Source: a virus
Strand: one strand, 5' to 3'
IMG/VR virus record: IMGVR_UViG_3300043172_001345
Location: 1 to 30,281 of that record
DNA: 30,281 nucleotides
In this document: positions 1 to 26,808 of the stretch, piece after piece
How positions within the stretch are numbered: position 1 is the stretch's first letter
Layout of the letters: every line of letters begins with the position of its first letter
Made by a program: the position numbers and the translations under genes
Notes under the pieces: model-generated
The model's database searches: none
Told to the model about the DNA's origin: nothing
The model's input: only the letters and a program-made list of their open reading frames with translations

Positions 1-360
1 TAAGATGATAAACTGCCTTAAAATCAGAATCCCAAACGTTCTGTGCCGGGGTTTCACCAACATCACCAACATAATCCGTATTATCGGATGCTGTAATATC
101 ATAATAAAGAAAGAATTTCATATCAAGAGCAGAAAAAATAGATGGTGCCTTGAAATGGATTCCCATTTTATCGTTCGCGATATCTTCATGATCTATTTCA
201 ACATAACATTGGGTTTGACCATTGCTTGTTGTGACAGCAATCTTTTTTCTATTGGCTGATATGGATAATTCAGTGAAAAATGCACTTAAATCCAATCCCG
301 AAATTCCAGAATTATCAGAAATATTAAGATATACTGGAAAGTCAGTAAGGTCTTCATCAA
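1..360 (-). repeat. DUF2341 copy 2, DNA-level repeat of two blocks at 1081-1330 and 1945-2040
   Basis: Positions 303-358 are identical to 1983-2038 (offset 1680 bp), and 271-302 match 1951-1982 with few changes. Positions 142-172 are identical to 1210-1240, and much of 21-60 matches 1095-1134. Third-codon positions are conserved too, so the duplication or gene conversion is recent. Confidence 0.9.
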
Positions 361-3028
361 CCTTAGTATTATCTATTATGATCTCAATTCGATTACTAAA
401 TCCACTTAAATATGGGGTTTCAATTAATAAAAGGTCATCATTTAAGGTGTGGTAAGTGGCCTTGATCCAGGACTCGGAGCGAGCGATTTTGGAGAGCCTG
501 ACCTCGTCATATTTGCCTAAAGTGTAATAACTATATGCAGATAAATACCACAGTCGCCCTATTTCAATATCGGGATGATCTGTTGTATCTAAAGTTCTGA
601 ATGCTGTTGAAATATCTTTCGCAATGGTTTCGAATCCATCAACATAAAGTATGGCATCGGATGCCCTATTCATCACCGCCGCAAACGTGTGAAAAATCCC
701 GTCCGCATGATTTAACGCATCCTCAACAACCACCTGTACCGTGTCGTCATCAATAATAACTTTCGCATGACCATTATTACCAATATACGCTGTCCAGCCT
801 TGGTTATTTCCTCGATCTCCATAACTAACTAAGGGATTGGTGCCACTATCAGATATATTAAAAACAGATTCAATGGTAAAATCACCGACTCCAAATTTAA
901 GATTTGGAGCCGTTGGAATACTAACGCAATCATTAGACCCATCAAAATCCAGGGCCTTTCCTACAAGACCATCTATTAAGTCGGCGGAAGTCATAGAGCC
1001 GCGAGGTGTGCCATCGTTTCCATTTAAAGTACTGTCCTTAATAGCATCCGTAACATCGCCATCAGGATCCTGGCCCATATGATGTACCGCAACGAAATCA
1101 GAATCCCAAACGTTCTGCGCCGGGGTTTCACCAATATCACCGACAAAATCCGTATTGTCTACTGGTAGACTATAAAGGAAGAAAGCCGTATCGATACTGG
1201 AAGAAATAAATGGTGCCTTGAAATGGATTCCCATTTTATCATTTGCAATATCTTCATGATCTATTTCAACATAACACTGGGTCTCCTGATCATCTGTCTT
1301 GATTGCGATCTTTTTCCGGTTCGGATGCCCTGCTGGCCATACAACAGTGCCTGAATTAATGACAAAATTATCGAAATCAATACTTAATTCTGCACCGGAA
1401 TTCCAATCATAACCACCGAGCCTTAAGAAGCAATCATCGGAATTCATATCGCGTGAACCACCGGATACGAAATCCCCCGATCCATCAGCATACCAAAGAT
1501 AAACTGTTGAACCAGTTCTCGTAATCTTCATTTTACCGTAATCGTTTGTTCTGGCAGGAGTGGTATCGTAAGTGTTTCCTTCATCATGGTAACGTAAAAG
1601 CCAATTAACTGCACCGAAATATTGACATTTTATAAGAACGTGATCATCACCTGGATCAGGCCCAAAATGAACCTCTAACTCGAATCCAGCCGCATTATGG
1701 AACAAGTGAACAAGATTAGAAAAGTCGATCTGTATGTCAAAATCGCCTGTCAGCATAAAATTGGAGTTGACATTAACACCATCGCCGCCTGCACCCGATA
1801 CACCTGTAAAATAGAAATGAGCCATATTGTTTTGTATATCGGCACCAAAATTGGTGGTTGAATGTAGGGTAAAGGGATCTCCCCATTTTATTATATTGAG
1901 TGGATCATCATCGGCACCGGTAAAATCATCATCGGCAGGATATTTCAGCTCAGTGAAAAATTCGCTTAAATCCAATCCAGATATTCCAGAATTATCAGAA
2001 ATATTAAGATATACTGGAAAGTCAGTAAGGTCTTCATCGATTAAAGATGCTGGAATAGCTATTTTTATCCCAACAGCTTCTTCTTCTTTTATTATTATTG
2101 GATCAGATATGGTCGAGACGATATCTGCCTGGGACGAAAAGATGATCCAAAATTCCTGATCAATAACAGGATCAGATATGGCCGAGACGATATTTGCATC
2201 AGAGGTATATTTATTAATCACAAAAAGATCAGAAGAAATATCGGTCTGAATTACAGGGGAACATGAAAAATGCCATTCCGGTTGTTGGTCAATATCTGCA
2301 TCAATTATGAAATCGATATCGGCAGCAAAAGAATAAAATCGATTAATATTTGGGCCGTCACATATAACATCAAAGCCAATTTCTGCATTACTTGAAAATG
2401 TTCTGAAATTATCTGTGTCTGGATTATTAAAAATGATCTGGATGACCGGATTAGAAACGAATTTATTGATTATGCCGATATATGCATCACCGGAGACCCA
2501 GGAAATATTTGATGTCGATGTAAAGGAATTAAATTGCTGTGCATCGCTATTGATATCGCTTACAATTGCAGGGCTCGAGCCGAATAGGTTTGATGCAGCT
2601 ATGCCAGCGCCCAGGGAAAGCGTAATAAATGGTGCGACCGCAAATGGTCTGTCTCGATATATACCGGATGAAAAATAGAAATGAATTTCTGCCGAATCCG
2701 ATTTAAATTGTTGCTCCTGATTTGAAGCAATATCGCCGATATCGCTCACAATTGATGGAGCCGATACAAACTGGTTTATAACTTTAACTGAGGAGGATAT
2801 ATCGGCCACTATCGATGCCGCAACACCTAAATCGCGGTCGACATCAGCAGCCGAAGATATATTGGTTTGAATAATGGGCTGGATATTAAAGCCTTCATTC
2901 CGCATTACAGAATAAAAATCTCCCCATTGGACACGAGCAAGAACTCGGAACTGACCGGGATAACACCAGGAAAATAAATTCGGGATTTCTTTAATACTTG
3001 AATCTATGCAATCGTCTTTGTAAGTCAT
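1..3028 (-). CDS. Giant tail adhesin/fibre with DUF2341 and LamG-like domains (C-terminus outside window)
   Basis: The reading frame is open from ATG at 3028-3026 to the left edge: 1009 codons with no stop, behind an AAGGAAAGG ribosome site. Residues 1-35 resemble the start of the 4807-5361 protein (EIPNLFSWC versus EIPNLISLC), suggesting a shared virion anchor. Residues about 60-318 hold ten or more degenerate repeats of about 20 residues of the type F-x-S-x-A-[DN]-I-V-x-x-I-S-D-P. A DUF2341-type module begins near residue 320, is interrupted at about 360-567 by a jelly-roll-like insert, and resumes at NRKKIA. A LamG/concanavalin-like domain follows at about 645-860 (AVHHMGQDPDGD, ALDFDGSNDCVSIP, ILYVDGFE). 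A second, uninterrupted DUF2341 copy starts near 880. Such domains bind glycans, so host-surface recognition is the likely role. It is the last gene of the tail operon seen here. Domain names come from motif recognition, not a search. Confidence 0.85.
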   Translation of the reverse strand, partial: MTYKDDCIDSSIKEIPNLFSWCYPGQFRVLARVQWGDFYSVMRNEGFNIQPIIQTNISSAADVDRDLGVAASIVADISSSVKVINQFVSAPSIVSDIGDIASNQEQQFKSDSAEIHFYFSSGIYRDRPFAVAPFITLSLGAGIAASNLFGSSPAIVSDINSDAQQFNSFTSTSNISWVSGDAYIGIINKFVSNPVIQIIFNNPDTDNFRTFSSNAEIGFDVICDGPNINRFYSFAADIDFIIDADIDQQPEWHFSCSPVIQTDISSDLFVINKYTSDANIVSAISDPVIDQEFWIIFSSQADIVSTISDPIIIKEEEAVGIKIAIPASLIDEDLTDFPVYLNISDNSGISGLDLSEFFTELKYPADDDFTGADDDPLNIIKWGDPFTLHSTTNFGADIQNNMAHFYFTGVSGAGGDGVNVNSNFMLTGDFDIQIDFSNLVHLFHNAAGFELEVHFGPDPGDDHVLIKCQYFGAVNWLLRYHDEGNTYDTTPARTNDYGKMKITRTGSTVYLWYADGSGDFVSGGSRDMNSDDCFLRLGGYDWNSGAELSIDFDNFVINSGTVVWPAGHPNRKKIAIKTDDQETQCYVEIDHEDIANDKMGIHFKAPFISSSIDTAFFLYSLPVDNTDFVGDIGETPAQNVWDSDFVAVHHMGQDPDGDVTDAIKDSTLNGNDGTPRGSMTSADLIDGLVGKALDFDGSNDCVSIPTAPNLKFGVGDFTIESVFNISDSGTNPLVSYGDRGNNQGWTAYIGNNGHAKVIIDDDTVQVVVEDALNHADGIFHTFAAVMNRASDAILYVDGFETIAKDISTAFRTLDTTDHPDIEIGRLWYLSAYSYYTLGKYDEVRLSKIARSESWIKATYHTLNDDLLLIETPYLSGFSNRIEIIIDNTKVDEDLTDFPVYLNISDNSGISGLDLSAFFTELSISANRKKIAVTTSNGQTQCYVEIDHEDIANDKMGIHFKAPSIFSALDMKFFLYYDITASDNTDYVGDVGETPAQNVWDSDFKAVYHL
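1081..1330 (-). repeat. C-terminal half of DUF2341 copy 1
   Basis: Matches 1-258 at the DNA level and encodes the KKIA, QCYVEIDHEDIANDKMGIHF and NVWDSDF segments shared by both copies. It is separated from its N-terminal half by about 600 bp of inserted coding sequence. Confidence 0.85.
1945..2040 (-). repeat. N-terminal half of DUF2341 copy 1
   Basis: Near-identical to 265-360 and encodes the shared segments DEDLTDFPVYLNIS and FFTEL. The inserted domain begins directly after FFTEL, where copy 2 continues with only a few residues before NRKKIA. Confidence 0.9.
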
Positions 3029-4806: not shown

Positions 4807-5361
4807 TTAATCTTCGGTTACCCTTGTGTCTCCTGTTTCGGTTACCCTTGTGTCTCCAGTCTCAGTTACCCGCATGTTTTGGATTTCTGCACTTATTATC
4901 GGGTCTGATATATCAAATACAATATCGGCCTGGGATGCAAAAAGCCTTTGAGCAAATATTGATGAGCTCACATCAAATACGATATTTGCAGTGGATGTAA
5001 AGTGCTTCGCATCCGGCATATCTGAGTATGCATTAAACACGATATTTGCACTGGATACAAATTCATGTAATATTTGCAATGCCGGGTCTAATATATCAAA
5101 GACGATATTTGCACTGGATACAAAATCACGGAATATTTGCATACGAGAACTTACATCAAATACAATATCTGGATTGGAATGAAACTGCGTTTTTAAATGA
5201 CTGATATCAAAACTGATTCTGACGAAAGATCTGAAATGCCCGGCCTCACATAATGAGATTAAATTGGGGATTTCCGTGATCACGGTATCCACACAATCCC
5301 AAATATAGCCTTCGGGTATGTCAGGGACTATTTCAGTCCAAGGGAAAATTTTATCAGCCAT
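4807..5361 (-). CDS. Repeat-bearing tail fibre-associated protein
   Basis: A 184-residue protein. Residues about 20-50 (WDCVDTVITEIPNLISLC) align with the N-terminus of the giant adhesin at 1-3028. Residues about 60-155 form five repeats of about 20 residues with the core F-x-S-x-A-N-I-V-F-D-[VI], for example at 80-90, 101-110, 121-130 and 141-150. The C-terminal 21 residues are a perfect tandem repeat of RVTETGDT ending in RVTED. Repeat composition and position point to a beta-structured fibre or baseplate-attached adhesin. It may be a short paralogue from which modules are exchanged with the adhesin gene. Confidence 0.75.
   Translation of the reverse strand: MADKIFPWTEIVPDIPEGYIWDCVDTVITEIPNLISLCEAGHFRSFVRISFDISHLKTQFHSNPDIVFDVSSRMQIFRDFVSSANIVFDILDPALQILHEFVSSANIVFNAYSDMPDAKHFTSTANIVFDVSSSIFAQRLFASQADIVFDISDPIISAEIQNMRVTETGDTRVTETGDTRVTED
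4817..4870 (-). repeat. 24-bp tandem repeat encoding RVTETGDT
   Basis: Two full 24-bp units (4817-4840, 4841-4864) and a partial third (4865-4870) lie at the 3' end of the 184-residue gene. Units differ at a few positions. In-frame period-8 repeats allow length change without a frameshift. Confidence 0.9.
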
Positions 5362-6283: not shown

Positions 6284-7864
6284 TTACTCACTCCCCTCTA
6301 CATTATATGAACGTTGTAAAGCTCGGTCATCGTTTTCAGTTTGCCGGTCGACGGGGACCGCTACATTTGTGTTTTGATTTATTTGCATCGCGTTCCCACC
6401 GGTAACTTGCTCCTGACGTTTAATTCTCCGCTCCTCTGAAGCAGCAATTCGTTGTTTAAGGCCTTCATAACCAACAGCAGAAATAGGTTTCGAAATTGGT
6501 TGAGTCTCCGCTTCACGTGCCTTTTTTAAGTTTGCTGCCCGTACCGCCGCCGCCTTTGCTTTTATAGCATCTGATTTTTGTTTTGCCTCTGCCTCTTTAG
6601 CTGCTTTTAAATTATATTCCTCCTGGGTCTCAGAGAATGCTCCTAATTTTTTTGCTGCTGCCATCCCAATTTTAACAGCAGAAGCAGAGAAAAACCCAGT
6701 TCTGCTATATTTTGTCATGAAGTCAAGCCAACCCACTTCTTTTTTTGCTGATTCTTCGGATCGACCCTCATCCATTAATTTTTGTATTTCTGCACTCTTT
6801 GCATCTAACTCTTTCTTTTCTTCTTCTTTTCGCTTCCTCCATATATCTCTGAAATAAGCAACCGGATCGGAAAGAAGAGTTTCAAATTCCAATGCTAATG
6901 CATCCATTAAAGGAGTGACTATTCCGTCAGTCACCGCCGCGACAATTGTTGCGACCAAATCAATCATCCCATCTTCTATTTGCTGACCGATTGATTTTAA
7001 TTGGCCAGCAGATAAAGTACCAAGACTCAAACCTGATAATATATCAGCAAAGAAATCAGGAGCAGATATTTTGTTGTGAACAAAATCGTCCCAGGATTTA
7101 GTAAAACCTGTCCAGGCTTTGCCGATTGCACCTTCAATTTGCTCGAGAGTATCTGTAAAAAACTTTTTTGAAACCAATCCAAATGATAAATCCGCAAGTG
7201 TCCGTCCGATACCAGAATTAAATTTTTCTAAGGTACTCGCATCATCACCAGCTTCCGCCCATCCTCTCAAAAATTCCACTCCGGCAGCAGCAGCAATAGC
7301 AGGGAAAAATAACTTTTTACCCGCGCTCTTAACCGCACCCAATACCCCTCTGAGCGATTTTCCGGCCATCAGTCCGCCCATCAGTCCGCCGAGCCCGGTA
7401 CCAAGAAACGCTTTTGAATCTGAATCTGATTTGGCTGCAGCCGCAGCAGCATCATCTTCTTTATCGTTAAGGTCTTCGAGCAGCTCATTGGTTCGCCGAT
7501 TGATGTCAAGATCTTGTTCGCGCTCGGCCTCGGCTAAGAAATCATTATGTTCTCCCTTTTCCATAAAGCGATTATTGGTTTTTAATTCATCGACGACATC
7601 ATCTAACAAATCTACCTGGACTTCGGTATCAAAACCTTTTAAATTACCAAAAGCATCGATTAATTGCTTGTTACCGGAATTAATAATGGTTTTTGTTTCG
7701 GAACTTATCAAAGATGAAAAAGTGCCTATGATTTCACCGGCATTTTTATTCAGCGCCGCCGTCTCTGACGGGGAGAGCCGGTCAGTCATCCCATCCTTTC
7801 CATCTATATGGGCAAGATGCCGGTTAATATCTTTTAATATTTTGGTTTCTACTGAATCAGGCAT
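6284..7864 (-). CDS. Probable tail tape measure protein
   Basis: A 526-residue, mostly helical protein. The N-terminal 160 residues are charged and coiled-coil-like with an Asp/Ala-rich linker. A Gly/Ala-rich hydrophobic stretch follows at about 155-205 (GTGLGGLMGGLMAGKSL, FFPAIAAAAGV) and another near 290-325. A long Lys/Glu/Ala helix covers about 350-470, and the C-terminus is Asn-rich (MQINQNTNVAVPVD). No enzymatic motif is visible. The call rests mainly on position: directly after the chaperone gene pair with its frameshift site, as in lambda and P2. A helix of this length would span roughly 75-80 nm. Another tail or baseplate structural role is possible. Confidence 0.6.
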   Translation of the reverse strand: MPDSVETKILKDINRHLAHIDGKDGMTDRLSPSETAALNKNAGEIIGTFSSLISSETKTIINSGNKQLIDAFGNLKGFDTEVQVDLLDDVVDELKTNNRFMEKGEHNDFLAEAEREQDLDINRRTNELLEDLNDKEDDAAAAAAKSDSDSKAFLGTGLGGLMGGLMAGKSLRGVLGAVKSAGKKLFFPAIAAAAGVEFLRGWAEAGDDASTLEKFNSGIGRTLADLSFGLVSKKFFTDTLEQIEGAIGKAWTGFTKSWDDFVHNKISAPDFFADILSGLSLGTLSAGQLKSIGQQIEDGMIDLVATIVAAVTDGIVTPLMDALALEFETLLSDPVAYFRDIWRKRKEEEKKELDAKSAEIQKLMDEGRSEESAKKEVGWLDFMTKYSRTGFFSASAVKIGMAAAKKLGAFSETQEEYNLKAAKEAEAKQKSDAIKAKAAAVRAANLKKAREAETQPISKPISAVGYEGLKQRIAASEERRIKRQEQVTGGNAMQINQNTNVAVPVDRQTENDDRALQRSYNVEGSE

Positions 7865-7866
7865 GT

Positions 7867-8052
7867 TTATTTATTTTCCCGCTTCTGCTTTTCTTTCTCC
7901 ATAGCAGATAAAGTTAATGCCGTAAAAATTTCCATTTCATATGGTACTAAACTCATGATTTCGGCATGTGAATAATCACCATACCGAACCAAATTAAAAA
8001 TCTCTTTATAATAATTTATAATAGTCTTATATTTCCCAATCAACTCAAGTAT
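7867..8052 (-). CDS. Frameshift extension of tail assembly chaperone (gpGT-like C-terminal part)
   Basis: This frame is open for 61 codons and ends at TAA 7869-7867, three bases before the tape-measure ATG. It has no ATG near its beginning, so it looks unstarted. It lies in the -1 frame of the 232-residue gene and joins it at the heptamer 8058-8052. The peptide contains YGDYSHAEIMSLVPYEMEIF and a basic C-terminal helix, similar in style to small chaperone partners with a conserved Y-S/Y-x-x-I-x-x-[ML]-x-P-x-E core. Frameshifting would give a fusion of about 290 residues. An alternative is separate translation from TTG at 8043-8041, but no good ribosome site precedes it. Confidence 0.7.
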   Translation of the reverse strand: MLELIGKYKTIINYYKEIFNLVRYGDYSHAEIMSLVPYEMEIFTALTLSAMEKEKQKRENK

Positions 8053-8738
8053 TTTAAAAAGTCACGTATAACATATTCTTCTTCGTGCTTGCATTTACTG
8101 CAAACCATATCAATTTTTAATTTCACTTTGATCAATTTAGCCGATGATTCAAATATTTTTTTAATTATCGTGTAGGTCAAAGATATTTTATCCTTGAGGG
8201 ATTCAGGAGTAAAATCAGTGAAAATATCTTCTTTCCAAAACACTTTATTTATGCTGTGGACGGCAGTCTCAAGCATCAAATCCTGTTGGGTTTTAATAAC
8301 ATCTGTCGAATACAAAAATCCCATTTTTATCGGGACAATCTCAAACGATAAATCATCATCAATTTTGCATAAGTCACTGAGCACATCTGCGTTCTCGGTG
8401 ACAATATGATCTTCAATATTGATGGATAATTCGATTGATGTATCACACTTTTTACATTTGGCATTTATGTCGAGGATTTCACCCTTTGATTTTGCCCTCA
8501 GATTTACTGCAATGAGAATAAATTCCATTGCTGCCATTGTATCGAAATCAGCATTATCCCCACATACTTCAATCAATTTTTTGTAATTATTGATTATAGC
8601 ACTCACATCTTCAGAGTCTAATGCCGTCAGTATGTTGCGCTCTTGCTCGATGGTATACGGTACAAATTTAAAAATGGCTTTTTGAACAGGTAAAAATAAT
8701 TCATGGACAGGTAAAACGTTTATTACTGGTAATTCCAT
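8040..8738 (-). CDS. T4 gp26-like baseplate/tail assembly protein with zinc ribbon (chaperone gpG position)
   Basis: A 232-residue protein with a helical N-terminal part (FVPYTIEQERNILTALDSED) and two CxxC pairs, C95/C98 and C213/C216, likely one zinc ribbon. The form [FY]-x-P-[FY]-T-x-x-x-E-x-x-[IL]-L followed by a late zinc ribbon fits the T4 gp26 family (Pfam T4 base plate protein). It lies between tube-type genes and the tape-measure candidate, where other phages encode the tail assembly chaperone. The start at 8738 has AAAGGAG upstream. The last codons contain a -1 slippery site, so a second, longer product is likely. Confidence 0.7.
   Translation of the reverse strand: MELPVINVLPVHELFLPVQKAIFKFVPYTIEQERNILTALDSEDVSAIINNYKKLIEVCGDNADFDTMAAMEFILIAVNLRAKSKGEILDINAKCKKCDTSIELSINIEDHIVTENADVLSDLCKIDDDLSFEIVPIKMGFLYSTDVIKTQQDLMLETAVHSINKVFWKEDIFTDFTPESLKDKISLTYTIIKKIFESSAKLIKVKLKIDMVCSKCKHEEEYVIRDFLKYLS
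8052..8058 (-). other. Predicted -1 ribosomal frameshift site (T TTA AAA)
   Basis: The coding strand reads GAC TTT TTA AAA TAC in the zero frame at 8063-8049. The heptamer T-TTA-AAA fits the X-XXY-YYZ rule exactly, four codons before the zero-frame stop TGA. Slipping by -1 enters the 61-codon open frame that ends just before the tape-measure gene. No strong downstream pseudoknot was seen by eye. Confidence 0.7.
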
Positions 8739-8761: not shown

Positions 8762-9616
8762 TTAAAATGGGCTCCATTTCTTCCAATCAAACTTTTGTTT
8801 TGGTAAATTGGACTTGCTATCAAATGCTCCTTTCGCCTGGATTTGGGCATTTTTTGCTGCATTGGCGACTCCGGTACCACCGGTTCCCCCGGCAAATATT
8901 TCTTTCGATCTTTCGCCGATAGCTTTTTCGCTTCCGACAAAGCCAGAAGGTTGCTGGCCGAAGCCTCCGAAAATATTTTTAATTGCTGAGTCAGGGATTT
9001 TCTTGGCCTGATTTTCGATGCCATCTTTTATTGCGTCAATGCCTGTACCTATCGTTCCCTGGGCAAGATCGAAAATAACGTCTTTCACTCCCGCAATGCT
9101 AAATCCGTCATCAAATTCATACATGACATCATCGTACCGGAAGCTGACATTAAGGCTCATTATCTGATCATTTGCATCTGCGGACAGCGCCACATTATCT
9201 ATGTTAACCGGGAATGCATCCAAGATGGTGCATTTAGCTCGCATGAACTGCTTCCGATTTAATAATTCTATCTCAATATTACCACTGTATTCATCCTTAT
9301 AATTAAAGGTTCTGCTACCATCATTCATAACAAGCTTTCGCCAGCTATCAAAGAAACGCAGAACTTTTAGACCGTCATCAACCATAAACTCAAAATTTAT
9401 CGGGTCATAATCAACACTTTGAGCAAAATGCCTGGGCAGGTTGTTATATTGTACAGTTGTGGTGTTATAGGTCATGAACGGGTAAGTTGCACCTTTGGTT
9501 AGAAAGCCGAACTCTTGTTCCCCGAAAAAATGTCCACTGAATGTTACTTGAAATAGATTAGGACGAAGAAAATCTGAAAACGAAGCTTTCAGATTTTCTA
9601 AGAACATTGTAGCCAT
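8762..9616 (-). CDS. Second tail-tube-fold protein (gp19 superfamily; possible tube cap/initiator)
   Basis: A 284-residue protein. The first 175 residues have the gp19 tube fold pattern: LRPNLFQVTFSG, then ATYPFMTYNTTTVQYNNLPR and VDYDPINFEFMVDDGLKVLR, ending in NVSFRYDDVMYEF. Compared with the 164-residue tube protein next door it has an extra Gly/Ala/Lys-rich tail of about 110 residues ending in DWKKWSPF. T4 uses tube-fold proteins gp48 and gp54 to cap the baseplate and start tube assembly, so a similar role is plausible. A second tube isoform is the alternative. Start at 9616 with AAAGG upstream. Confidence 0.7.
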   Translation of the reverse strand: MATMFLENLKASFSDFLRPNLFQVTFSGHFFGEQEFGFLTKGATYPFMTYNTTTVQYNNLPRHFAQSVDYDPINFEFMVDDGLKVLRFFDSWRKLVMNDGSRTFNYKDEYSGNIEIELLNRKQFMRAKCTILDAFPVNIDNVALSADANDQIMSLNVSFRYDDVMYEFDDGFSIAGVKDVIFDLAQGTIGTGIDAIKDGIENQAKKIPDSAIKNIFGGFGQQPSGFVGSEKAIGERSKEIFAGGTGGTGVANAAKNAQIQAKGAFDSKSNLPKQKFDWKKWSPF

Positions 9617-9628
9617 AGAATAGCCTTT

Positions 9629-10123
9629 TTAAAAAATACGAGTCCAATAATCGTATGTGAATGTTACCACATATTCTGCGAGAGTATCATTGGTTTCATA
9701 GCTCAAATCGACGGGAGCAACCGAGGATGGCCATGCTCCAATAAAAGAATATTGTGTAATTTCTTTTCCTGTATTGTCCAGAGCAATAACTTCGGCAGTC
9801 CGCTTATATAAGGCCGCATCCAGGCCGATGGCAGCTTCATTAGCCTTGGCAGTCTGCATCCAAATCTCCAGGGCCGTGTGGACTGCAAAATCATTGTCCA
9901 TTATTACGGTAACCGTCAGGTCTTCATATGTCACATCCCCGGCAAGTTTCGCTTTCATGCCAAGATATGGTGCTTCGACAATACCGATAGTTTTCCCTGG
10001 GAGCTGAGTTGCCTTGCACATATAAACAAATTTCTCCGGCATGCCCATGACTTCCATCTGGTAAAGGTTAGGCCGGTAACCATTCGTTAATGCAGATTTG
10101 AAATCTTCGATTCTGATTCCCAT
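9629..10123 (-). CDS. gp19: Tail tube protein, T4 gp19-like
   Basis: A 164-residue protein, almost exactly the length of T4 gp19 (163). It shows the family pattern YRPNLYQMEV near residue 20, a central TYEDLTVTVIMDNDFAVHTALEIWM, and the closing EYVVTFTYDYWTRIF. Hexamers of this protein stack to form the rigid inner tail tube. It directly follows the sheath gene, as in T4, behind a strong hairpin in the 56-bp gap and an AAGGAGAAAG ribosome site. Confidence 0.92.
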   Translation of the reverse strand: MGIRIEDFKSALTNGYRPNLYQMEVMGMPEKFVYMCKATQLPGKTIGIVEAPYLGMKAKLAGDVTYEDLTVTVIMDNDFAVHTALEIWMQTAKANEAAIGLDAALYKRTAEVIALDNTGKEITQYSFIGAWPSSVAPVDLSYETNDTLAEYVVTFTYDYWTRIF

Positions 10124-17935: not shown

Positions 17936-18799
17936 ATGAAAATGACAGAAGAGCAAAAAGCCAATCGAAGGGCAGCAAAGGAAGCCGTCCATCTTAAATC
18001 GTGTTTGAGAAATGACAAACGTAATGCTTTTGAAAATATGTTACCGGAGCCGAGCGTTAAATGGGATGTTGGGGACCGGGTCCGCTATGGTGCCTGGGAC
18101 TGGACCGGGATTTTGGCTACCTATAAAGGGAGCCGGGTTTATAAATGTTTTTCGGTCACTCGGCAAACTAATCGGAACGTGCCTGATGAAACTACAGGTA
18201 AAATTCATTATGAGCCCTGGCATAATTTAAACAGTTATCGGTCACCGGAAGAAAACGAGGCCATCGAACATTTTGAGCAGGATGAGGATATCTATTTTTC
18301 CTTTCAACAACGGGATATCCAAAGTTTAATCAGACAGTACCTGAACAAATATGGCCTCGATCTTGATCCCGATTACCAACGAGGCCATGTATGGGATATC
18401 GACCAAAAAGTAAATCTAATTGATTCCATTTTTAAAAATATTGATATCGGCAAATTCGCCGTCATCAAACGACCCTGGGGACCGGATGGTAACAGGCCGC
18501 TCACGCGTAAACTATATGAAGTGCTCGACGGGAAACAGCGTATAACTACCATTGTTGACTATTATCTCGGTCGCTTCCAGTATAAAGGTAAATATTATAA
18601 CGAACTCGGATATCGAGATCAAAGACATTTTACATATTTTTCGGTATCATATGCCGAGTCCGATTATTTGACACAGGAGCAGAAATACCGATACTTTTTG
18701 AAATTAAATACCACGGGGACACCGGTAGATCCCGCGCATATGGATCGAGTAGCCGGACTTCTGGCCGAGGAAATTGAGAGAAATGAGTGCATCGATTAG
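17936..18799 (+). CDS. DUF262-family protein (ParB/GmrS-like fold)
   Basis: A 287-residue protein. Residues about 143-215 show the DUF262 signature: LDLDPDYQRGHVWD, then KVNLIDSIFKNIDIGKFAVI, then YEVLDGKQRITTIVDYYLG, where the usual DGQQR reads DGKQR. The first 100 residues form an extra beta-rich domain (KWDVGDRVRYGAWDWTGI). There is no C-terminal HNH (DUF1524) domain such as full GmrSD-type enzymes carry. DUF262 proteins bind or hydrolyse nucleotides in modification-dependent restriction systems. A stand-alone phage copy could act against competitors, act as a decoy, or process DNA. The start is 5 bp after the preceding gene. Confidence 0.8.
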   Translation: MKMTEEQKANRRAAKEAVHLKSCLRNDKRNAFENMLPEPSVKWDVGDRVRYGAWDWTGILATYKGSRVYKCFSVTRQTNRNVPDETTGKIHYEPWHNLNSYRSPEENEAIEHFEQDEDIYFSFQQRDIQSLIRQYLNKYGLDLDPDYQRGHVWDIDQKVNLIDSIFKNIDIGKFAVIKRPWGPDGNRPLTRKLYEVLDGKQRITTIVDYYLGRFQYKGKYYNELGYRDQRHFTYFSVSYAESDYLTQEQKYRYFLKLNTTGTPVDPAHMDRVAGLLAEEIERNECID

Positions 18800-21359: not shown

Positions 21360-21844
21360 TTTAATCCCCAAACTTGGAGTTGCTTATCATCTTTTTTAAT
21401 TCTGGTACCAACTTGTATATAAATTGGTATCTTTACCCGCGCCAATGTATCCTTTAACCAGGGAATATCGATATACTGAAGGTCTTTATCAATATTCGAT
21501 TTAATTAAAATAAACTTTGTCGCATATTTGATAGGTAATTTTCTGGACTGAATTGTACTCTCACGCTCACCGCTGAACTTTACACCGGTCAATGAAACAT
21601 CCTGAAATGGAACAACCTTAAAACGGTCGGATATTTTATCACCATCTAATTCAAATTTACCAATTATCACCGGAGGACCGCCCAAATACCAATTAGTCAT
21701 TTTTGACCGGGTCGTCGAAATATTATTAAAATTATTTGATGTAATCGCTTTTTTATCGAGAATGGTGACCAGTTGAGGGACGCCAACAAGATGATAAACT
21801 ATACCGACTTGTTTACCTTCCAATATTTGACGATAAGTTCTCAT
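21356..21844 (-). CDS. Tagged internal-protein candidate with ADP-ribosyltransferase-like fold
   Basis: A 162-residue protein. Tag MRTYRQILEG, with I-L-E at 7-9 as the possible prohead-protease site. After it comes GIVYHLVGVPQLVTILDKKA (H18), ISTTRSKMTNW (42-52), a long strand-rich part with IGKFELDGDKI, and GERESTIQSRKLP (E93, E95). The order Y-H, S-T-T-R, E-R-E is like the His, Ser/Thr and Glu sites of ADP-ribosyltransferase-fold phage proteins. T4 likewise packages the ADP-ribosyltransferase Alt. The catalytic assignment is tentative. Confidence 0.7.
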   Translation of the reverse strand: MRTYRQILEGKQVGIVYHLVGVPQLVTILDKKAITSNNFNNISTTRSKMTNWYLGGPPVIIGKFELDGDKISDRFKVVPFQDVSLTGVKFSGERESTIQSRKLPIKYATKFILIKSNIDKDLQYIDIPWLKDTLARVKIPIYIQVGTRIKKDDKQLQVWGLK

Positions 21845-26502: not shown

Positions 26503-26808
26503 TTATCTGGTTAAACCATCCCATTTATCAATTGCATCATACATAAATCCAACCAATTCCTCTAATCTCGATTCATCGAGACTATCTATATAATCGTTGA
26601 CCTTTTTCGGACTCATTTTTATGCCATCCGAGCGGATATCCGCTAACACCTTTTTCTTATTTGAGTGTTTTTTGGGTAATTTATATATAAATTCATTGAT
26701 TAAATCTTTAAACCTGCTCTTGGAAATATCCAAAGTTAAATAATAATCATTGACAGAATATTGCCAATCTTCATCTTTTTCGTTTAAAATTTGAGCAAAA
26801 GTTTTCAT
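26503..26808 (-). CDS. Tagged internal-protein candidate, 101 residues
   Basis: Tag MKTFAQILNE (L-N-E at 8-10); the first tagged gene downstream of the gp13-like gene, overlapping its stop by four bases. The rest is acidic then basic: YSVNDYYLTLDISKSRFKDL and KKHSNKKKVLADIRSDG, ending VGFMYDAIDKWDGLTR. No family recognised. It opens the island in transcription order. Confidence 0.75.
   Translation of the reverse strand: MKTFAQILNEKDEDWQYSVNDYYLTLDISKSRFKDLINEFIYKLPKKHSNKKKVLADIRSDGIKMSPKKVNDYIDSLDESRLEELVGFMYDAIDKWDGLTR

Follow-up and report, generated by a model that had tools for sequence, protein, structure and literature searches.

The gp26-like gene and the frame that follows it

The window, i.e. 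the complete 30,281-nt stretch of viral DNA analysed here (IMG/VR record IMGVR_UViG_3300043172_001345), carries a gp26-like gene on its minus strand at 8040..8738. The zero-frame product of 232 aa, the predicted short form of a tail assembly chaperone, matched PF12322 in a profile search with an E-value of 8.9e-25 and 88.1 bits (curated cut-off 24.5), and phrog_150 with an E-value of 1e-23. The gene is preceded by a strong Shine-Dalgarno sequence, AAAGGAG, and ends with the codons GAC TTT TTA AAA TAC TTG AGT TGA (D-F-L-K-Y-L-S-stop). The AF2 model of the protein was confident (pLDDT 89.8, pTM 0.83) and resembled the gp26 and gp51 models predicted for many phages in BFVD (E-values from 2e-13). 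A fold search of the PDB with this model returned nothing significant; the HK97 chaperone 2ob9 was placed at rank 13 (E 3.3, probability 0.14), and this match does not count as support for a chaperone fold. Sequence searches against solved structures, performed with the gp26-like domain and with the -1 frame domain described below, gave chance matches only.

The locus is situated between tube genes of the gp19 type (8762-10123) and a tape-measure candidate that was assigned by position and features. The tail tube protein gp19 is encoded at 9629..10123 (minus; PF06841, E 5e-13; phrog_45, E 4.8e-43), and a paralogue of the same family at 8762..9616 (minus; phrog_45, E 6.5e-37), directly upstream of the gp26-like gene. 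Two neighbouring tail-tube (gp19/phrog_45) paralogues are present between the sheath gene and the gp26-like gene. The tape-measure candidate (6284..7864, minus, 526 aa) was recognized by its position, its hydrophobic segments and its length. It measures 497-528 aa in five of six relatives, and had no match in Pfam or PHROG. In the remaining relative (L093), an 80-aa ORF of the MKTYRQILNEK type (4866-5110) was observed directly 3' of the -1 ORF, at the place taken by the tape-measure candidate in the other five. In phage lambda, G/GT is encoded just upstream of the tape-measure gene.

The heptamer T TTA AAA, which had been predicted near the zero-frame stop, was found at 8052..8058 (minus), in the zero frame and three sense codons before the stop; it contains the tetramer A_AAA. 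The -1 frame (7867..8052, minus) comprises 61 codons plus TAA: after a slip it would be read from 8052 to 7870 as ILELIGKYKTIINYYKEIFNLVRYGDYSHAEIMSLVPYEMEIFTALTLSAMEKEKQKRENK and end at the stop TAA at 7869-7867. Its predicted length and its lack of an ATG at the start were confirmed, the first ATG not occurring before residue 33. The distance from the -1 stop to the ATG of the next gene (7864) is two bases instead of the three given in the original prediction. The -1 product matched phrog_634 ('baseplate hub assembly catalyst', the gp51 family) with an E-value of 3.4e-11 over residues 5-60, could be aligned with 35 relatives, and would form the C-terminal domain of a predicted 290-aa fusion. 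Its AF2 model was all-helical at moderate confidence (pLDDT 77). At the level of sequence, both the -1 fusion of the two frames and the lambda G/GT layout, with tube genes upstream and the tape-measure candidate downstream, were borne out.

The open part of the -1 frame begins 19 nt before the zero-frame stop. Since a -1 stop lies just beyond this point, a slip must fall within the last six codons. Based on composition, 57 open codons are expected by chance with a probability of about 0.3%; for a stretch of six codons, the corresponding values are about 4% for any in-frame X_XXY_YYZ and about 0.7% for TTTAAAA. The only start-like codon is a TTG that overlaps the zero-frame stop (TTGA) and has no Shine-Dalgarno sequence.

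Conservation in the window's group

Comparison with relatives provided much stronger evidence than these chance estimates. The window and five close relatives form a group of six sequences from two samples; another contig was identical in the gp26 gene. Group members share 71-83% identity with the window in gp26. The -1 frame is free of stops in all six. Comparison of the window with its relatives gave dN values of 0.09-0.18 and dS values of 0.58-0.95 in the -1 frame, a range that covers four comparisons because dS was saturated and could not be computed for L005. Pairwise substitutions within the group were distributed over -1 codon positions 1, 2 and 3 as 174, 53 and 268. The -1 frame is under purifying selection.

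The heptamer reads T TTA AAA in four members and C TTA AAA in the other two (L004 and L005), and TTAAAA is invariant in all six. Of the expectation that homologues keep both the heptamer and the -1 frame, the second half was confirmed throughout, whereas the exact heptamer is kept by four of six. The site forms part of a conserved 23-nt block, ATACGTGACTTYTTAAAATACTT (8047..8069, minus), which is proposed as the frameshift signal of the group; 22 of its 23 positions are identical in all members, and the sole variable one (Y) is the first position of the heptamer. Among columns with an invariant amino acid, the codon is identical in six of eight at the junction compared with 18 of 111 in the rest of the gene (Fisher p 8e-4). 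The upstream part of the block, ATA CGT GAC, lies outside the double-coding stretch, and its conservation therefore suggests a role at the level of the mRNA or of the nascent chain. Because of the C TTA AAA variant in L004 and L005, re-pairing in the P site would be near-cognate and the pair not canonical, while A_AAA is invariant.

A Shine-Dalgarno stimulator upstream of the site was not found in the window's group, and the 70 nt downstream contained no structure that was both stable and shared (z between -2.8 and +1.4). The conserved block is the candidate for what raises slip efficiency in the group. In E. coli, U_UUA_AAA does not appear among the top-listed motifs for efficiency, and A_AAA as a tetramer shows only weak activity (PMC4066793); the host of the window phage may differ from E. 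coli. The motif T TTT TTY, in turn, falls within the class H_HHU_UUY, one of the most efficient in that bacterium (PMC4066793). One tentative reading, which we consider possible but rather less likely than its opposite, is that the group has swapped the widespread T TTT TTN for a signal that needs only A_AAA in the A site and the 22-nt invariant context. P-site re-pairing would then perhaps be near-cognate (C TTA AAA), and assistance might come from the nascent peptide or the mRNA context instead of a Shine-Dalgarno sequence or hairpin. If this is true, the gp26/gp51 family would show three routes to the same two chaperones: slippage on the T6 run, a separate pre-fused gene (T4), and the signal of the window's group. 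Members of the group were not found in bacterial genomes by DNA-pattern and protein searches.

Slip sites in T4-like relatives and the fused gene of T4

IMG/VR was scanned for the gp51 domain without regard to phase, which yielded 80 loci. Combined with phage records and the first relatives, the gp51 domain was located in the -1 frame of gp26 in 89 of 89 two-domain loci. Overall, 92 two-domain loci (86 IMG/VR contigs and 6 phage records) and 9 more phage records were collected, and the domain was always in the -1 frame. TTTTTT in slippery phase is present in all 85 loci other than those of the window's group and of one Rhizobium phage; there, the T6 run takes the form T TTT TTC, T TTT TTT or T TTT TTA and ends either immediately before the gp26 stop or one codon earlier. 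In the total set outside the six-member group, all but one carry T TTT TTN at most two codons from the gp26 stop. In Rhizobium phage RHph_I1_18, T TTT TTA and T TTA AAC were found eight to nine codons before the stop. A later scan of viral contigs for the gp51 domain recovered five of the six group loci again, together with two distant relatives with T TTT TTC. The original prediction had named related phages without the heptamer as evidence against it. The distant relatives, with their T TTT TTN, do lack the exact heptamer, but a slip site in general has been retained.

The T6 site was found in cultured phages of Sinorhizobium, Vibrio (including Schizotequatrovirus), Aeromonas (Emmerichvirinae), Methylophilales, Acidovorax and Stenotrophomonas. 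Nine cultured T4-like phages beyond the two-domain loci fit this pattern: Sinorhizobium phiN3 and phiM12, Vibrio D491s and phi-Grn1, Methylophilales Melnitz-2, Aeromonas 65 and Asswx_1, Acidovorax ACP17, and S-PM2; in the Sinorhizobium phages the slip site is located two codons before the stop. The gp51 frame is wholly unannotated in KU686194 (L007), MW117966 (L010), MH791398 (L108) and NC_041997 (L109). The expectation that standard gene calling would miss the second frame agrees with several cyanophage records, which have no feature there. Where records annotate a 'gp51' gene, as many do, or leave the stretch empty, as others do, the sequence probably encodes the C-terminal portion of a fusion.

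For codon statistics, 48 representatives with less than 85% identity were used. The base before TTT is T in 48 of 48 (log10 P -9.2, given the codon usage of the genes themselves), and all of them have TTT as the first Phe codon (log10 P -7.95); both probabilities assume independent lineages, which does not fully hold, and are to be read as strong rather than exact. The codon ahead of the site is AGT, AAT, TCT, GAT, GGT, ACT or GCT, so that the amino acid varies while the final T is fixed. A start codon of any kind for the domain is absent from 18 of the 48 representatives and an ATG from 26, and a start with an SD-like sequence occurs in only two.

With regard to stimulators, the Glu codon about 10 nt upstream of the T6 site is GAG in 23 of 32 relatives (GAG:GAA 23:9; 10 expected, p 3e-6), a choice that creates GAGGG. 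This element is a possible internal Shine-Dalgarno stimulator in these relatives, comparable to the internal Shine-Dalgarno sequence at dnaX, and is absent from the window's group. Examples are the cyanophage loci L001 (5680-5720), L007 and L010, with GAGGG about 10 nt before T TTT TTC. A downstream stem-loop as common stimulator was rejected: the mean z was -0.54 among the 48 relatives (8 below -2), and none was consistent across the window's group.

Phage T4 served as a natural control. Its genes 26 and 51 are located on opposite strands. The N-terminus of T4 gp51 is gp26-like (blastp E 3e-6 versus T4 gp26) and its C-terminus corresponds to the -1-type domain (HMM i-E 1.5e-8 in a two-sequence search). 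The alignment crosses the junction (T4 VFKLL aligned with FFRLA), and both phrog_150 and phrog_634 hit T4 gp51. In T4 gp51, sequence comparison thus shows a gp26-like domain fused in frame to a -1-type domain. T4 gp26 ends with GAG TTC TTT GAG TTA CTA TAA, without a heptamer, and its -1 frame is closed at once by a stop. Given the pre-fused gp51 and the lack of a heptamer in gp26, T4 apparently has a separate gene for the product that slipping would yield in other T4-like phages. T4 gp51 is needed for assembly and is absent from the final particle (PMC3004832). The two-gene arrangement is described in PMC10885494, where Vladimirov et al. 2022 is cited for it.

Predicted frameshifting, alternatives and known systems

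We propose that -1 ribosomal frameshifting produces a short and a long tail assembly chaperone from one gene, as in lambda G/GT, and assign this reading a probability of about 0.88. It is favoured because 89 of 89 two-domain loci, most of them from the phase-blind scan, have the domain in -1 phase, because T4 holds the same domains as a natural in-frame fusion, and because the group combines selection on the -1 frame with synonymous conservation at the slip site. Most ribosomes would terminate at the gp26 stop and yield the 232-aa short form. A minority would slip one base back at (Y)TTA AAA, with the Leu-tRNA and the Lys-tRNA re-pairing one base upstream, to yield the 290-aa long form with its 61-aa helical gp51-like domain. 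In analogy to lambda, the gp26 domains are predicted to cover the tape-measure protein, with the gp51 domain bringing in the tail-tube protein. For the window phage itself, we infer the occurrence of slippage, its efficiency and the chaperone roles.

An improbable alternative is termination at the gp26 TGA followed by reinitiation at the overlapping TTG, which would give a separate gp51-like protein of 58 aa. The TTGA overlap is found in all six group members, a separate gp51 starting from an ATG just past the gp26 stop is annotated in many cyanophage records, and Rhizobium RHph_I1_18 has TAATG at this position. Yet the T of TTGA is also accounted for by a Leu codon of the -1 frame, and the TTG has no Shine-Dalgarno sequence, whereas gp26 has a strong one. 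Reinitiation is further opposed by the relatives that have no start codon (18 of 48) or no ATG (26 of 48), by the preservation of synonymous sites in the slippery heptamer, and by the in-frame fusion in T4, a naturally occurring example of the fused form. Beside frameshifting, reinitiation may contribute to a small extent. Transcriptional slippage on the T run, giving mRNAs with a shifted frame, is very improbable: runs of 6 to 8 T are present in cyanophages and relatives, but the group has only T5A4, the sequence TTCTTAAAA in L004 and L005 contains no run longer than 4, and the fixed phase of the run relative to the codons fits ribosomal slippage. Errors of sequencing or assembly, or decay of the gene, could split one frame such that a single indel would join it again, which is all that speaks for this reading; it was refuted by the same split in the same phase in six sequences from two samples and in many phage families, and by purifying selection on the -1 frame.

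The kind of system predicted here is known. In lambda, gpG and gpGT are a short and a -1-extended chaperone, the long form being minor; the partner bound by G is the tape measure, and that bound by T is the tube protein (Atkins et al. 2016, PMC5009743). G-T frameshifting was called conserved in long-tailed phages 'except T4' (PMC5009743). T4 has been the textbook exception to tail-chaperone frameshifting. As judged from sequence, the window resembles lambda in having a -1 extension at a slippery heptamer near the 3' end (the exact heptamer in four of six group members), and differs in the heptamer itself. No lambda-type family was found among the Pfam and PHROG matches of the window proteins, and no sequence relation was detected. 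The TAC locus of phage Adele (Vandenendeviridae/Andersonviridae, PMC12846349) is similar in layout, with a -1 frame that annotation overlooked and that lies immediately 5' of the tape-measure gene; it belongs to other phage families and has another motif (GTTTTT).

The assignment of gp26/gp51 of T4-like phages as tail assembly chaperones has already been published (Vladimirov, Gautam and Davidson 2022, Virology 566:9-15, as cited in PMC10885494 and PMC12846349). The link of the gp26-like T4 family to the G/GT class, made in the original prediction, is supported by our data and, as far as the citing papers indicate, dates from that work. PMC12846349 refers to the same study for poly-T signals of frameshifting in the TAC-N genes of T4-like phages, and part of the T TTT TTN survey may repeat it. 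The window has the same two protein families. T4 uses two unlinked genes, the long one being a pre-made fusion, whereas the window's group would fuse the domains by the predicted frameshift. The T TTT TTN relatives differ from the group, whose putative slip site is (Y)TTA AAA and whose -1 product carries two additional residues close to the junction. Apparently new are the distinct slip signal of the group, the measured extent to which the -1 phase holds, and the evidence from synonymous sites. The comparisons indicate that T4-like phages of many kinds (cyanophages, Vibrio, Aeromonas, Sinorhizobium, Acidovorax, Stenotrophomonas and Methylophilales) have kept a frameshift site at the gp26/gp51 junction, and this wide retention fits the two genes of T4 as a derived state. 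The window's group would allow two different slip signals that drive the same conserved product to be compared in nature.

Elsewhere in the window, at least nine small ORFs on the minus strand between 20500 and 27000 begin with M(K/Q/R)(T/S)(F/Y)xx(I/L)..E, e.g. MKTFAQILNE and MKTYRELLKE (examples at 26808, 25590, 25221, 24777, 24292, 24004, 22915, 22521 and 21359), with looser fits at 21844, 23292 and 23591. The motif is present in 9 of 186 minus-strand ATG frames compared with 0 of 90 on the plus strand. These N-termini resemble the capsid-targeting N-terminus of T4 internal head proteins, and the ORFs possibly encode a large set of head-packaged, injected proteins. Repeat-built proteins with segments like ANIVFDIS and NIVSDISDP, which look like fibre or adhesin repeats, are encoded on the minus strand at 2-3028 and 4807-5361. 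An ORF on the plus strand (17936-18799) contains a DGKQRITTI motif and by eye resembles DUF262/ParB-like proteins.
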